Below, in pieces: positions 4,522-8,255 of a stretch of DNA of 21,729 bases; the first letter of the stretch is position 1; every line of letters begins with the position of its first letter. The notes beneath the pieces are model-generated. The model did not search any database. It saw nothing but the letters and a program-made list of their open reading frames with translations, and had not been told where the DNA came from. This stretch comes from a virus: IMG/VR virus record IMGVR_UViG_3300031601_000044, positions 1-21,729 of that record; one strand, written 5' to 3'. A program made the translations under genes and the position numbers.

Positions 4522-4851
4522 ATGAAATGTATCAACAAATCAGTTGTACTGGAAGTTAAAAAAGTGACATCATTAAATAGAACCGACGGTGGAATTTTTC
4601 TGCCGGATGACAAGAATGCTGAAGACGAGTTAAAGTTCATCGTGTATATGATAGGCGAAGGCGTGAAAACGGTACGAGTAGGTGATGTAGTGTTAAAGCC
4701 CGAAGTGACAGTGTTGCGTCACACGCGTGTACGTCAGGGTGCCCCTGAGTATGACATGCGTCTGCCTAATGGTGGTGACGGCATAGTAGTTTATGAGAAT
4801 GACATCCGGGTGATTATTGAAGAAGCATCCGAAAATGTCGAAGATGCATAA
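4522..4851 (+). CDS. GroES-like co-chaperonin (109 aa)
   Basis: Residues 21-30 (TDGGIFLPDD) match the GroES mobile loop, where GG plus a hydrophobic tripeptide (IVL in E. coli, IFL here) docks onto GroEL. This is followed by a strand resembling GroES GEV-x-A-V-G (VYMIGEGV, 41-48), the VRVGDVVL segment (51-58; GroES VKVGDIVI) and a C-terminal YENDIRVIIE strand (91-100; GroES ESDILAIVE). Length is close to bacterial GroES (about 97). Several phages encode co-chaperonins (T4 gp31 and related) that replace host GroES so GroEL can fold the capsid protein; the same role is inferred here. Start ATG 4522 follows AAGGAATGAAAG. It is the last protein gene before the RNA array. Confidence 0.7.
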   Translation: MKCINKSVVLEVKKVTSLNRTDGGIFLPDDKNAEDELKFIVYMIGEGVKTVRVGDVVLKPEVTVLRHTRVRQGAPEYDMRLPNGGDGIVVYENDIRVIIEEASENVEDA

Positions 4852-4877
4852 CGCTCTTTGATAATTGAATAAGTAAG

Positions 4878-4949
4878 ACCAGGGTAGCTCAGTGGTAGAG
4901 AGACGCACTTATAAAGCGTATGTCGTGGGTTCGAGTCCCACCCCTGGTC
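4878..4949 (+). tRNA. tRNA-Ile with anticodon UAU
   Basis: A full cloverleaf: acceptor ACCAGGG/CCCTGGT, T8, D-arm with A14, G18G19 and A21, T-arm GTGGG-TTCGAGT-CCCAC. The anticodon stem is ACGCA/AGCGT (one A-A mismatch) around loop CTTATAA, giving anticodon TAT (4910-4912). G10-A25 is also mismatched and the discriminator is C. CCA is not encoded. It would read AUA, which appears often in the neighbouring genes. Confidence 0.85.
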
Positions 4950-4953
4950 TTTT

Positions 4954-5077
4954 GGTATGATCATCTAACTATGATCGGGCGGGGATATAGGATTCGCACT
5001 TTAAGTAGTTCACTGCTCGTTGGAGGATACCGTGGCGAACGAATGCGGGAAATGTCGGTGCAACCCCGACTCATACC
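4954..5077 (+). ncRNA. 124-nt tRNA-like structured RNA
   Basis: GGTATGA (4954-4960) pairs with TCATACC (5071-5077) as a 7-bp acceptor-like stem. Directly before the 3' strand is a 5-bp T-arm, GTCGG-TGCAACC-CCGAC (5054-5070), with the exact tRNA geometry and C56/A58 equivalents. No normal D or anticodon arm fits; the roughly 90 bases between contain CTAT-g-ATC/GATATAG around loop GGGCGGG, TTCGCAC paired with GTGGCGAA (one bulge), and AGTAG/CTGCT with loop TTCA. It lies between two tRNA-type genes with T-rich linkers. It could be a degenerate or insertion-bearing tRNA or a processed regulatory RNA. Confidence 0.4.
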
Positions 5078-5085
5078 TTTTAGTA

Positions 5086-5141
5086 AACCCCACAAGCCTC
5101 TCAAAACCATATGGTAACTTGAAGCTCAAATGTGTGGGGTC
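5086..5141 (+). ncRNA. Compact hairpin RNA in the tRNA array
   Basis: ACCCCACA (5087-5094) pairs perfectly with TGTGGGGT (5133-5140). Inside are AGC/GCT, TCAA/TTGA (5101-5104 with 5119-5122) and CCAT/ATGG helices stacking towards one apical loop. It ends in CTTTT like the neighbouring tRNA genes, so it could be processed with them or act as an imperfect terminator. It has no T-arm or anticodon loop, so I do not call it a tRNA. Confidence 0.35.
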
Positions 5142-5145
5142 TTTT

Positions 5146-5241
5146 GGCGTAGTAGCTCAGTGGATAGAGTATCGGAGAATTCGCAGCGTTTAAAAACCGC
5201 GCAAATTCCGAATGTCGCAGGTCCGAGTCCTGCCTACGCCC
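5146..5241 (+). tRNA. tRNA-like gene with a 30-nt anticodon loop
   Basis: Acceptor GGCGTAG/CTACGCC is perfect; T8, A14, G18G19, A21, D-stem GCTC/GAGT and T-arm GCAGG-TCCGAGT-CCTGC are present (C at position 55). The anticodon stem TCGGA (5172-5176) and TCCGA (5207-5211) is perfect, but 30 bases, not 7, lie between them. That insert can fold further (CGC/GCG pairing) and ends in an apical TTTAAAAA that looks like an anticodon loop for UAA. No T33 fits the usual place, so the anticodon is undetermined. The variable loop ATGTC equals that of the tRNA-Ile. Confidence 0.6.
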
Positions 5242-5437
5242 TTTCATATCTGGCTTGCTAATAAATCGGAACGACCGATTGGTCAACCCCAAAAACCGTA
5301 TTAAAGTAAGCCTGTCATCTTTCTTTCATTTCTTAACCAGTATCTTGGAAACTAATTCCAGCCACTTTGAAATGTGACCGTAGTCAGCCGGTCCCCAACC
5401 GGAAACCGATTCTAAATCAATATTCAGGAGAATTACT
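5242..5437 (+). other. Leader region before the packaging and capsid module
   Basis: No gene is seen. Two hairpins are present: AATCGG-aacga-CCGATT (5264-5280) and CCGGT-cccca-ACCGG (5388-5402). A pyrimidine-rich run lies near 5310-5335, and the region ends in a strong ribosome-binding site (CAGGAG) for the next gene. I see no consensus promoter, though a late promoter of unknown type would be expected here. Confidence 0.45.
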
Positions 5438-5941
5438 ATGCAATCTCGAAATTCATTTACACCAAGGGGAACGATAACAACGGCGCATGCCGCTCTTACA
5501 AATGCACAGAGATATCGACCAACGGTATCCATATTAGTGCCGGGTGAGTACGTAGAGGTGGAACTCAAAAACGATTATAATGAGTTTCTTGAGATTATAT
5601 CACATGTGGTGGGGGATGATGCTGATTCTAACGTGTTGCAACTATATGCTTCACGTGGAAAGAATGACGACTATACACATATGGTAACGCTTACGTTCAC
5701 GGTGGGTACTATGATAGTAAGGGGTGGTACTAAGTTATATCATGATACGCTTACATTGGCGGAGGTAGATGCCGCGTTTGAGACGGCTATATCCGCTTCG
5801 GCCATAAATGATATAGCAAAGTTATGGATAAACACTAATGGGTATAGTAAGTTACTATTCATAGCGTCAACACTTGGATCTACTAGCGTTACGGTCGAAA
5901 CCGCAAGCGTGGCCCGTGAGGGTTTACCAGTAGTAGCATAA
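5438..5941 (+). CDS. Hypothetical phage protein (167 aa), first gene of the late module
   Basis: Begins MQSRNSFTPRGTITTAHAAL after CAGGAGAATTACT. The body has alternating hydrophobic/polar strands (ILVPGEYVEVEL, MVTLTFTVGTMIV) and a helix near 120-132 (VDAAFETAISASAINDIAKLW), then Ser/Thr/Val-rich strands to the end. The composition is that of a virion or beta-sandwich protein, but I do not recognise the family. It lies 12 bp before the putative small terminase, so it may be a structural or packaging accessory. Function unknown. Confidence 0.7.
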   Translation: MQSRNSFTPRGTITTAHAALTNAQRYRPTVSILVPGEYVEVELKNDYNEFLEIISHVVGDDADSNVLQLYASRGKNDDYTHMVTLTFTVGTMIVRGGTKLYHDTLTLAEVDAAFETAISASAINDIAKLWINTNGYSKLLFIASTLGSTSVTVETASVAREGLPVVA

Positions 5942-5953
5942 TGGGGCAATGGT

Positions 5954-6436
5954 ATGGCAACTGGCAAGAAATCAGGAATGTTCGAAAAGAAGTTGCTTAA
6001 GTTTTTGCGTAATATTGGCGCCGAAGTGGAAGCACAGGAAGACGATACGGTGTCGACCAAGATAGAGGCATTGGCAAGGCTCACGTGGAAGGAAGCGTTG
6101 GGGTATACCTATGAGCGTGAAATACTAGGCAAGGAGGGCAAAGTAATTAAGGTGCAAGAACATATGGCACCAGATAGGTACGCAAAGCAAATACTGTTCG
6201 ATCATCTGCTGGGTAAACCCAAACCACAGACACAGAAACAGATGGACGATAAAAAGCCGAAGGCACCACCGGTACATGATCGTGTGGGTGAGTCGCTTAT
6301 TGGGCACCTAAACGAAATTGCGGAGAAAAGTCATGTTGACAGCAGTGGAAGCGGCAAGAGAAGTAATAAAGCCACAACTCGCAGTACCATTTCCGAGCGA
6401 CTCCGAATATTGGGTATGTCCAAAGACAGGACTTAA
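5954..6436 (+). CDS. Putative terminase small subunit (160 aa)
   Basis: Evidence is mostly position: it directly precedes and overlaps the large terminase gene. Residues 36-75 (KIEALARLTWKEALGYTYER) and 86-100 (APDRYAKQILFDHLLGKPKP) look helical. The second, ending in LLGKPKP, resembles the region of DUF5681-like and small-terminase proteins that ends in DRxxGKP. The C-terminal third is Ser/Lys/Arg-rich and probably disordered. The gene shares its last 104 bases with the large-terminase start, an unusually long overlap. In tailed phages the small subunit recognises the packaging site and regulates the large subunit; that role is inferred here. Confidence 0.5.
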   Translation: MATGKKSGMFEKKLLKFLRNIGAEVEAQEDDTVSTKIEALARLTWKEALGYTYEREILGKEGKVIKVQEHMAPDRYAKQILFDHLLGKPKPQTQKQMDDKKPKAPPVHDRVGESLIGHLNEIAEKSHVDSSGSGKRSNKATTRSTISERLRILGMSKDRT

Positions 6437-8255
6437 GGTTCCCAAGGGCATAATTCAAAACATGCAGTGGCGTAAAGATCTTTTGGAACGGGCGTATGAA
6501 GATACCGTGCTACAGCATGACTTATTGGTAGCATGTAAAGAGTCAAAACTGTTCTGGATAAACGCTTTCTGCTGGACGTTCCACCAGTGGGATGTTGATC
6601 CGAATACAGGTAAAAGGCATCCCGCGATAAACCAACACGTACCATTCGTTACGTGGGAGGTGCAAGATCGTTGCATAGATACGTTCGACTGGTGCCTTGC
6701 TAACGGTGAGGACGTACTTGTCAATAAGAGTCGTGATATGGGTGCCTCATGGTCATGTATGGCCTACATACATTGGCACTGGCTATTTACTACCAATGCC
6801 CAGATGTTGGAGATGTCACGTACCAAAGAGTATGTGGATCAGACCGCTAACATGAAGGCACTCTTTCCCAAGCATGATTATATGAATAGATGGCTACCTT
6901 GGTGGATGCGTCCTCCTGAGTGCTTGCCAGAGCAGAAGAACCGTTCATGCATGCACCTTTTCAATGAGTTAAACGGAGCGTGTGTAGATGGTGAATCAAC
7001 TACCGAACATGCTGCATCGGGTGATAGAAGACTCATTGTCCTTCTAGACGAGTTCGCGAAGGTCAAACATGGCAGAGAGATGCGTTCGGCTACAAGAGAT
7101 GCAGGAATCTTTAGAATCATTAATTCAACAGTTGCCGGGCCAGGAACGGAATATTCTAATTGGAAAAACTCTAGGCAAATCAAAATCTTCCCGCTCATGT
7201 GGTGGGACCATCCAGAGAAAGGTTCCAAACGCTACGTGCAACAGGAACCTGTATCCAAGGAATGGAAGATCAGATCACCGTGGTACAACTATGAAGAAAC
7301 AATTCGTTCACCTAAAGAAATGGCCCAAGAAGTTGATGCAGATGACATAGGGTCGGGTAATGCATTCTTTAACATAGCTGGCATAGACACACATGACGCC
7401 TTGTTCGGATGTAAGCCAAGAGTAGAACTAAACGTTGAATTTAAGCGGGGTATAGCGGATGATGCGATACCCTCTTTGTTACGCACAAGAAGCATAACGT
7501 GTCTGAAGGTGACGAGGGGACGCAAGAGCAAGTTAAAGTTATGGTGTCGACTAATAGGAGGAAGACCGAATCAGAACCTAACATACAATTTTGGTATGGA
7601 CATATCAAAAGGAATGGGTGCATCCAACTCAGTGATAAGCGTTCGATGCCTAGAAACTGGTGAGAAGGTGGCTGAATGGGCGTGTGCCCAAACGTTGCCG
7701 GTTGATATGGCACGCGTTGCAGTTGGACTCGCACTATGGTTCGGTGGACGTGGGAGATGCAATCTTCCATTCATGATCTGGGAAAAGAACGGTCCCGGTC
7801 TTAACTTTGGCAAGCGTATAGTTAGGACATATCACTACCCAAGGTATTACAGAACTGTTACTGTCGGAAATGTGCATGACAAGCAGAGTGATAAATACGG
7901 ATGGCAGAGTTCCACTGACGCTAAGTATGAGCTTATGACCGATTACGATCATGCATTGGCGTATGGTGACATTATAAACCATTCAAGTCTGGCTTTAGAA
8001 GAAGCTAGGAAGTACATAACATTTGGTGATAACAAAGTTGGACCATCGTGTCTAATAGAAGAAGACGCTTCAGCCAGAAAGACACATGGTGACAGGGTTA
8101 TAGCCGACGCCCTAACTCTGCTTGGCAAAAAGAAATCACGCAAGCCCGGAAATCTGCTGTCAATGCCACAAGGATCAGCAGGTCACAGGAAGGCACAACG
8201 TAAAAAGTTAAAGAGTAAGAAAAAAGGGTGGCGTCACGGTTTTGATAATAGGTGA
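6333..8255 (+). CDS. terL: Terminase large subunit (640 aa)
   Basis: The ATPase-nuclease motor that cuts and packages phage DNA into the prohead. The ATPase domain has the Walker-A-like KSRDMGASW (residues 132-140), the terminase variant of the P-loop, and Walker B LIVLLDEF (234-241) with catalytic E240. The RNase-H-like nuclease domain shows NFGMDISKG (419-427, D423), an acidic residue at E484 (IWEKNGPG) and a third set at GDRVIADAL (586-594). Start ATG 6333 is chosen over TTG 6318 because GGAGA lies 7 bases before it. Size is in the usual range. The C-terminus (HRKAQRKKLKSKKKGW) is strongly basic. Its stop overlaps the portal ribosome-binding site. Confidence 0.93.
   Translation: MLTAVEAAREVIKPQLAVPFPSDSEYWVCPKTGLKVPKGIIQNMQWRKDLLERAYEDTVLQHDLLVACKESKLFWINAFCWTFHQWDVDPNTGKRHPAINQHVPFVTWEVQDRCIDTFDWCLANGEDVLVNKSRDMGASWSCMAYIHWHWLFTTNAQMLEMSRTKEYVDQTANMKALFPKHDYMNRWLPWWMRPPECLPEQKNRSCMHLFNELNGACVDGESTTEHAASGDRRLIVLLDEFAKVKHGREMRSATRDAGIFRIINSTVAGPGTEYSNWKNSRQIKIFPLMWWDHPEKGSKRYVQQEPVSKEWKIRSPWYNYEETIRSPKEMAQEVDADDIGSGNAFFNIAGIDTHDALFGCKPRVELNVEFKRGIADDAIPSLLRTRSITCLKVTRGRKSKLKLWCRLIGGRPNQNLTYNFGMDISKGMGASNSVISVRCLETGEKVAEWACAQTLPVDMARVAVGLALWFGGRGRCNLPFMIWEKNGPGLNFGKRIVRTYHYPRYYRTVTVGNVHDKQSDKYGWQSSTDAKYELMTDYDHALAYGDIINHSSLALEEARKYITFGDNKVGPSCLIEEDASARKTHGDRVIADALTLLGKKKSRKPGNLLSMPQGSAGHRKAQRKKLKSKKKGWRHGFDNR

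Follow-up and report, generated by a model that had tools for sequence, protein, structure and literature searches.

The locus examined here raises the question of what a tRNA gene with an anticodon loop of 30 nt may be doing in a phage genome. The window, that is, the whole stretch of 21,729 nucleotides that was analysed, is a 21.7-kb phage fragment from a virus record, with matches to a terminase, to a GroES-like protein and, weakly, to a major head protein. Downstream of the GroES-like gene, and before the gene that follows it, there is a run of RNA elements on the plus strand; the features of this region are listed below.

4522-4851, plus strand: GroES-like co-chaperonin gene (Pfam Cpn10, E 2.4e-4, just over the cut-off; PHROG co-chaperonin GroES, E 1.6e-4)
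4853-4873, plus strand: boxA-like element GCTCTTTGATAATTGAATAAG, head of the RNA cluster
4878-4949, plus strand: tRNA-Ile(UAU) (RF00005, 61.7 bits; ARAGORN)
4954-5078, plus strand: second odd tRNA body (strict acceptor and T-arm scan)
5088-5140, plus strand: abiF-like RNA (RF03085, 35.8 bits, E 8.4e-5, slightly below the 37-bit gathering score; fold z -2.6)
5146-5241, plus strand: tRNA body with a 30-nt anticodon loop (RF00005, 50.4 bits; no excision product)
5177-5206, plus strand: 30-nt loop replacing the 7-nt anticodon loop, GAATTCGCAGCGTTTAAAAACCGCGCAAAT (read from the sequence; cmscan)
5252-5312, plus strand: structured leader (fold z -3.4 for 5252-5316; closing stem GGCTTGCT/AGTAAGCC)
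5438-5941, plus strand: first gene after the leader (no family match in Pfam or PHROG)
6318-8255, plus strand: terminase large subunit (PHROG, E 2.1e-5), used to find the phage family

The match of 5146-5241 (plus strand) to RF00005 lies well above the gathering score of 29 (E 2.6e-8; cmscan). The acceptor stem (GGCGTAG/CTACGCC) has seven Watson-Crick pairs, the D stem (GCTC/GAGT) includes one G.U, the anticodon stem (TCGGA/TCCGA) has five pairs, the variable region is ATGTC, and the T arm (GCAGG-TCCGAGT-CCTGC) joins five Watson-Crick pairs to a loop, TCCGAGT, that fits the T-loop consensus; bases 3:70 are C-G. A sequence-only reading had described an intact body, not simply decaying, with a 30-nt anticodon loop and without T33, and each of the details checked was borne out by sequence reading and cmscan: the acceptor, T and anticodon stems are perfect, and there is no U33 because the second loop base is A. 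The feature is real and non-trivial. Whereas an elongator tRNA that decodes has a 7-nt anticodon loop with U33, this gene has neither; ARAGORN misses it and in the window calls only its neighbour, tRNA-Ile(UAU), at 4877-4950. That it is nonetheless a working tRNA decoding with an unusual loop is extremely improbable, since an intact body and an A-rich apical loop stand against the length of the loop, the absence of U33 and a search within the insert that found no internal canonical anticodon arm.

The same reading had seen in the extra sequence an apical loop resembling an anticodon loop for UAA. The letters TTTAAAAA are present, but the predicted fold puts them in a 9-nt loop on a 3-bp stem and not in a canonical arm, and the resemblance is most likely due to chance. 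The fold z-score is -2.9 for the whole body and -1.2 for the arm alone (5172-5216), so the insert is not unusually stable. Against Rfam, the body gave no tmRNA or YrlA match at the gathering score, and a weak YrlA match (18.6 bits, gathering score 69) was taken as chance. Homologues with or without the insertion had been proposed as a check; none was found by an IMG/VR pattern scan and blastn in phages, which returned generic tRNA arms only.

The extra sequence had also been regarded as a possible short intron, and its position fits this idea: in archaeal pre-tRNAs, too, the tRNA body is intact and the extra sequence lies within its anticodon arm. The archaeal intron motif, the bulge-helix-bulge, consists of 3-nt bulges and a 4-bp helix; the best such reading of the 5146-5241 arm, made by eye on predicted folds, has opposite 2-nt bulges and leaves no canonical product. 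When all one-segment excisions were tried, none left an arm with a 5-bp stem, a 7-nt loop and U33 at up to one mismatch; in the shuffled-loop control, 79 of 200 loops yielded a canonical arm under a stricter form of the test. Excision was also applied to long-gap tRNAs collected by one DNA pattern (80 of 119 genome loci used). Among the matches listed, it rescued 46 of 59 archaeal, 5 of 17 bacterial and 10 of 106 viral tRNAs, against shuffled expectations of 0.7, 0.1 and 1.1, respectively. Thus the canonical arm is restored in most of the archaeal cases listed, but not at 5146-5241, and among the listed viral bodies that keep the stem just 2 of 27 have T as the second loop base. A group I intron was rejected as well. 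The catalytic core of group I tRNA introns takes up hundreds of bases, and the earlier statement that 23 nt is too short for one holds, the insert being about 23 nt and intron families remaining unmatched (cmscan/Rfam). The intron reading fails for 5146-5241, and removal of a short tRNA intron from its anticodon loop is very unlikely. Since short intron-like inserts occur in other phages, including Aeromonas T4-like phages with an intronless relative, the general idea is sensible, yet it misfits this gene.

In T4-like Aeromonas phages, a 26-28-nt insert splits CTTCT^AA in a tRNA (L559 655-753, L561 654-752, L560 654-754, L568 454-554, L566 454-554 and L569 455-552), and phiAS5 carries the same tRNA without the insert (L567 455-527). 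The 3' end of the insert can pair with the anticodon, and the anticodon after excision reads UCU (Arg); the tRNA is annotated as a joined tRNA-Lys in PX29 and as tRNA-Glu in Aeh1, and it adjoins gp57B, annotated as an RNA ligase. The tRNAs of PX29, Ah1 and Aeh1 are like 5146-5241 in having a short insert in the anticodon loop of a phage tRNA, but differ in that excision gives a CTTCTAA arm and that an intronless form exists in phiAS5. Occurring with and without the insert in named isolates, this tRNA offers a workable example of what may be tRNA splicing in a bacterial virus. Longer inserts, of about 46-58 nt, were seen in large-phage contigs (L146 1957-2071, 2085-2204 and 2324-2451, in minus-strand scan coordinates; L271 550-673; L199 1206-1321). 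They lie in the 5' strand of the anticodon stem, have a hairpin and an ACAGCA-like motif in common, and give a canonical arm on excision in three of five cases.

The surroundings of 5146-5241 were examined by a strict scan of the whole window on both strands, which required a 7-bp acceptor stem and a 5-bp T stem with T54, C56, R57 and A58. Three matches were obtained (4878, 4954 and 5146), against a mean of 0.0 in shuffled windows. The first is tRNA-Ile(UAU), the arm of which is of the decoding type (7-nt loop CTTATAA, anticodon stem with one A.A mismatch). The second, undetected by Rfam and ARAGORN, has seven Watson-Crick pairs in its acceptor stem (GGTATGA/TCATACC) and five in its T arm (GTCGG-TGCAACC-CCGAC), and the 93 nt between the two contain no standard D arm and no standard anticodon arm. 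Of the tRNA bodies in the cluster, two out of three therefore cannot decode as drawn. Each of the three is followed by a T-rich trailer (CTTTT, TTTTA and CTTTC). The element at 4853-4873 appears boxA-like at the sequence level, being of the GCTCTTTRNNAA type as in E. coli rrn; the pattern has this one match in the window (0.06 expected) and two matches in the leader and spacer of E. coli rrnB (0.01 expected).

Relatives were collected by TerL searches (8 and 80 loci), and the window was compared with five close relatives in which this region is present, L040, L041, L004, L042 and L043. In all six phages, the tRNA bodies lie upstream of the terminase gene and after a boxA-like sequence, the order being GroES-like gene, boxA-like element, tRNA bodies and late genes; the boxA-like element occupies the equivalent site in L040, L041, L004 and L042, and a variant is found in L043. 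The acceptor stem is free of mismatches in all 14 bodies of the six phages (G.U allowed; the second body of L041 has a 1-nt spacer). An anticodon arm with a 5-bp stem, a 7-nt loop and U33 is missing in eight of them, and six have an arm of the decoding type. The window supplies two of the eight odd bodies, L042 one with a 15-nt loop, L043 two with loops of 16 and 6 nt, L041 one without U33 and one without standard arms, and L004 one with no anticodon arm at all. An intact body lacking its anticodon arm thus recurs at the equivalent place in relatives, and in L071, which is more distantly related, the stem is perfect and its loop measures 19 nt. The inserts differ from phage to phage and do not align. 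Since three of the six phages (L004, L041 and L043) hold odd bodies only, the common element appears to be the tRNA body and not decoding. ARAGORN names one of the odd bodies Ser (L041 3198) and another Met (L043 5219), and lists a third as unassigned (L043 5357).

In L043, at 5434-5506, GGGTGGA...TCCACCC encloses two pieces in permuted order, the first resembling a T arm and the second a D arm, and these may be rearranged tRNA fragments. The boxA-like GCTCTTTGRNAAKTGAATARS is recurrent in other phage contigs (L538-L558), in several of them just before a start codon. The combination of boxA and tRNA as a general phage arrangement was rejected, as a tRNA body follows the boxA-like motif in just 2 of 22 loci, L137 and L540, both from the family of the window.

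Among 108 IMG/VR bodies chosen by their T arm only, hand reading of seven non-canonical rows left three as truly odd, after three misparsed canonical tRNAs (L250, L287 and L317) and one D-loop insert (L301) had been dropped; L271, one of the three bodies kept, is intron-like. The difference from 8 of 14 is significant (Fisher p 4.5e-7). This comparison bears on the main rival to a processing role, namely that the odd bodies are recent pseudogenes seen through detection bias: with fast turnover of the tRNA array, an indel or rearrangement would have destroyed the anticodon arm, and the remainder would not yet have decayed. The array differs in every relative and is variable, because in L001/L040 the stretch between the tRNA T arms is missing entirely; duplicated tRNA 5' pieces are present in L042 (same contig as L005). 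Furthermore, since the scanners need intact acceptor or T arms and so favour intact bodies, other broken bodies would be under-counted, and a recent single indel would look alike. However, pseudogenes do not readily account for an odd fraction of 8/14 against about 3% elsewhere, for the lack of a broken acceptor stem in any of the eight odd bodies, or for three phages that keep odd bodies only. Some odd bodies are also conserved elsewhere, as in records of Pseudomonas phages or plasmids, where a C-to-T/G-to-A change falls at pairable positions. Recent decay is possible but, overall, somewhat unlikely.

Long-gap viral tRNAs were searched in IMG/VR with a pattern that leaves out the acceptor stem except base 7. 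For 98 of the 106 distinct tRNAs listed, the acceptor stem shows no more than one mismatch, compared with 7.1 of 106 expected by permuted partners and 33 of 35 for normal viral tRNAs. After the eight rows with more than one acceptor mismatch had been dropped, the anticodon arm was unrecoverable in 82 of the 98 listed bodies. No anticodon arm was present in 55; a stem with an expanded loop was kept in 27 (3.5 expected by shuffling); the other classes were 7 excisable, 8 with an arm and a 3' insert, and 1 with a 5' insert. The 59 archaeal bodies listed comprise 5 without an arm, 2 with an expanded loop, 36 excisable, 14 with a 3' insert and 2 with a 5' insert. As intact D and T arms are required by the pattern, it would let young pseudogenes through as well. 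Among the matches listed, odd and normal bodies were further compared for the alanine identity pair G3:U70 (9/100 against 1/43, not decisive), an encoded CCA (27/100 against 15/43, no difference of note) and a four-T run in the 3' tail (18/100 against 2/43). D-loop inserts were found at 69 loci in a complete scan, and the canonical arm is kept in 31 of 51 distinct ones; this count gives no rate, as the anticodon-insert counts cover the matches listed only. Two tandem anticodon arms as a general design were rejected, since any internal canonical arm occurs in 3 of the 106 viral tRNAs listed (3.3 expected by shuffling), and two of these three are tandem tRNA pieces.

Several individual bodies were recorded in these searches. 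A conserved tRNA body with a 46-47-nt middle (L151, L186, L562 874-969 and L564 846-942) is found in viral contigs and in Pseudomonas aeruginosa plasmid records; the plasmid copies have no tRNA annotation, in a gene table that lists no RNA genes. In L234 and L381 (Nevskia MAG), tRNA bodies carry tandem anticodon stem-loops, UAU and GAU (both Ile), and the annotation of Stenotrophomonas phage DLP_6 includes a related Ile-UAU tRNA whose variable region is long. The anticodon-loop inserts of L267 14-143 and L305 2870-3004 resemble a small nested tRNA, as their ends are complementary and an ACCA tail comes after them.

Between the two odd bodies of the window lies the abiF-like RNA at 5088-5140, 10 nt after the body at 4954-5078 and 5 nt before that at 5146-5241. 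No Abi_2/AbiF protein (PF07751) was matched in the record of the window, which is a fragment. When the window was taken together with 30 viral records containing the abiF core motif, 29 of the 31 had no Abi_2 protein, in a set with many fragments and some motif matches without a closing stem. In 9 of the 30 viral records (3.3 expected), a tRNA body is found no more than 300 nt away from the motif, on the same strand in all nine. Orphan abiF-type RNAs in phages (the window at 5088-5140; L010-L039) often sit inside same-strand tRNA arrays, and they are candidate RNA decoys against AbiF. In Clostridioides difficile, the AbiF toxin is neutralised by abiF RNA (PMC12373285), and an abiF RNA was predicted in cyanophage S-CREM1 (PMC9964418). 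None of the relatives scanned carries the abiF-like RNA; therefore, bracketing such an RNA is not the general role of the odd bodies.

The half of a tRNA recognised by RNase P and RNase Z is the acceptor/T half, which is the half conserved here, and from this we infer that the bodies are cut out of a transcript. The best account, with chances that we consider to be about even, is that the odd bodies do not decode and are retained for the acceptor/T-arm half, most probably to provide RNase P and RNase Z sites in a late-operon leader. On this processing reading, 5146-5241 would keep the parts seen by tRNA-processing enzymes (acceptor stem, T arm and also the D arm) and would have lost a usable anticodon. 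It would stand in the transcribed leader of a putative head-and-packaging operon, after the boxA-like element and before the structured leader; RNase P would cut the 5' end of the body, RNase Z or a 3' exonuclease would trim its 3' end, and the cleavage would separate the boxA leader from the message. In the window phage, the cleavage would also free the abiF-like RNA on a fragment of about 68 nt (5078-5145).

The structured leader is itself found upstream of the late genes in the window, L040, L004 and L041, without an Rfam match at the thresholds used. Over these four sequences only, its closing stem differs on both sides (GGCTTGCT/AGTAAGCC, AGCCTGTG/CACAGGCT and GGCCTGTG/CACAGGTC; changed in L004 and L041); the stem was not seen in L042 and L043.

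A more specific form of the processing role is unlikely, though worth stating: the two odd bodies of the window would flank and release an orphan abiF-type RNA that neutralises a host AbiF toxin, and the bodies of the relatives would cut the boxA leader from the late message, both acting as natural processing brackets. In synthetic biology, tRNA-spaced guide arrays are used as such brackets. The leaders and spacers of rRNA operons, such as E. coli rrnB, likewise place a boxA-like element beside a tRNA, within the leader region of a long transcript, but their tRNA is normal and decoding, and in the spacer their boxA comes after the tRNA. Other tRNA-like RNAs, tmRNA and YrlA among them, keep a tRNA half and have lost decoding, as here, but 5146-5241 does not match these two at the gathering score. 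In van den Berg et al. 2023 (PMC10264068), phage tRNA genes are also altered in the anticodon loop; those loops carry substitutions, and their tRNAs are proposed to serve translation, whereas the arm at 5146-5241 cannot decode, and neither insertion nor intron occurs as a word in that text. Phage tRNA bodies without an anticodon were not found among the open PMC papers listed by the searches, which is weak evidence of absence, as subscription papers and preprints lie mostly outside it.

Alternatively, the body or the loop it displays may act in trans as a decoy, by binding a tRNA-acting host defence factor or pairing with a target RNA. An abiF-like antitoxin RNA adjoins 5146-5241 in a record without an abiF gene, the loop is expanded and not lost, and phage tRNAs have been proposed to counter anticodon nucleases (PMC10264068). 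However, the loop sequence is not conserved among relatives, some bodies have no loop whatsoever (L004), and the arm of 5146-5241 lacks unusual stability, which together make this role decidedly unlikely.

The presence of similar bodies in relatives and in many other viruses suggests that they are kept for a job other than codon reading. If the bracket reading is true, the wider viral set would represent a large unrecognised class of non-decoding tRNAs, which tRNA finders either miss or assign to an amino acid. The question of why phages carry tRNAs is a long-standing one, and decoding is assumed in almost every answer; a class of non-decoding phage tRNA bodies would place part of the answer in RNA processing, decoys, or RNA display.
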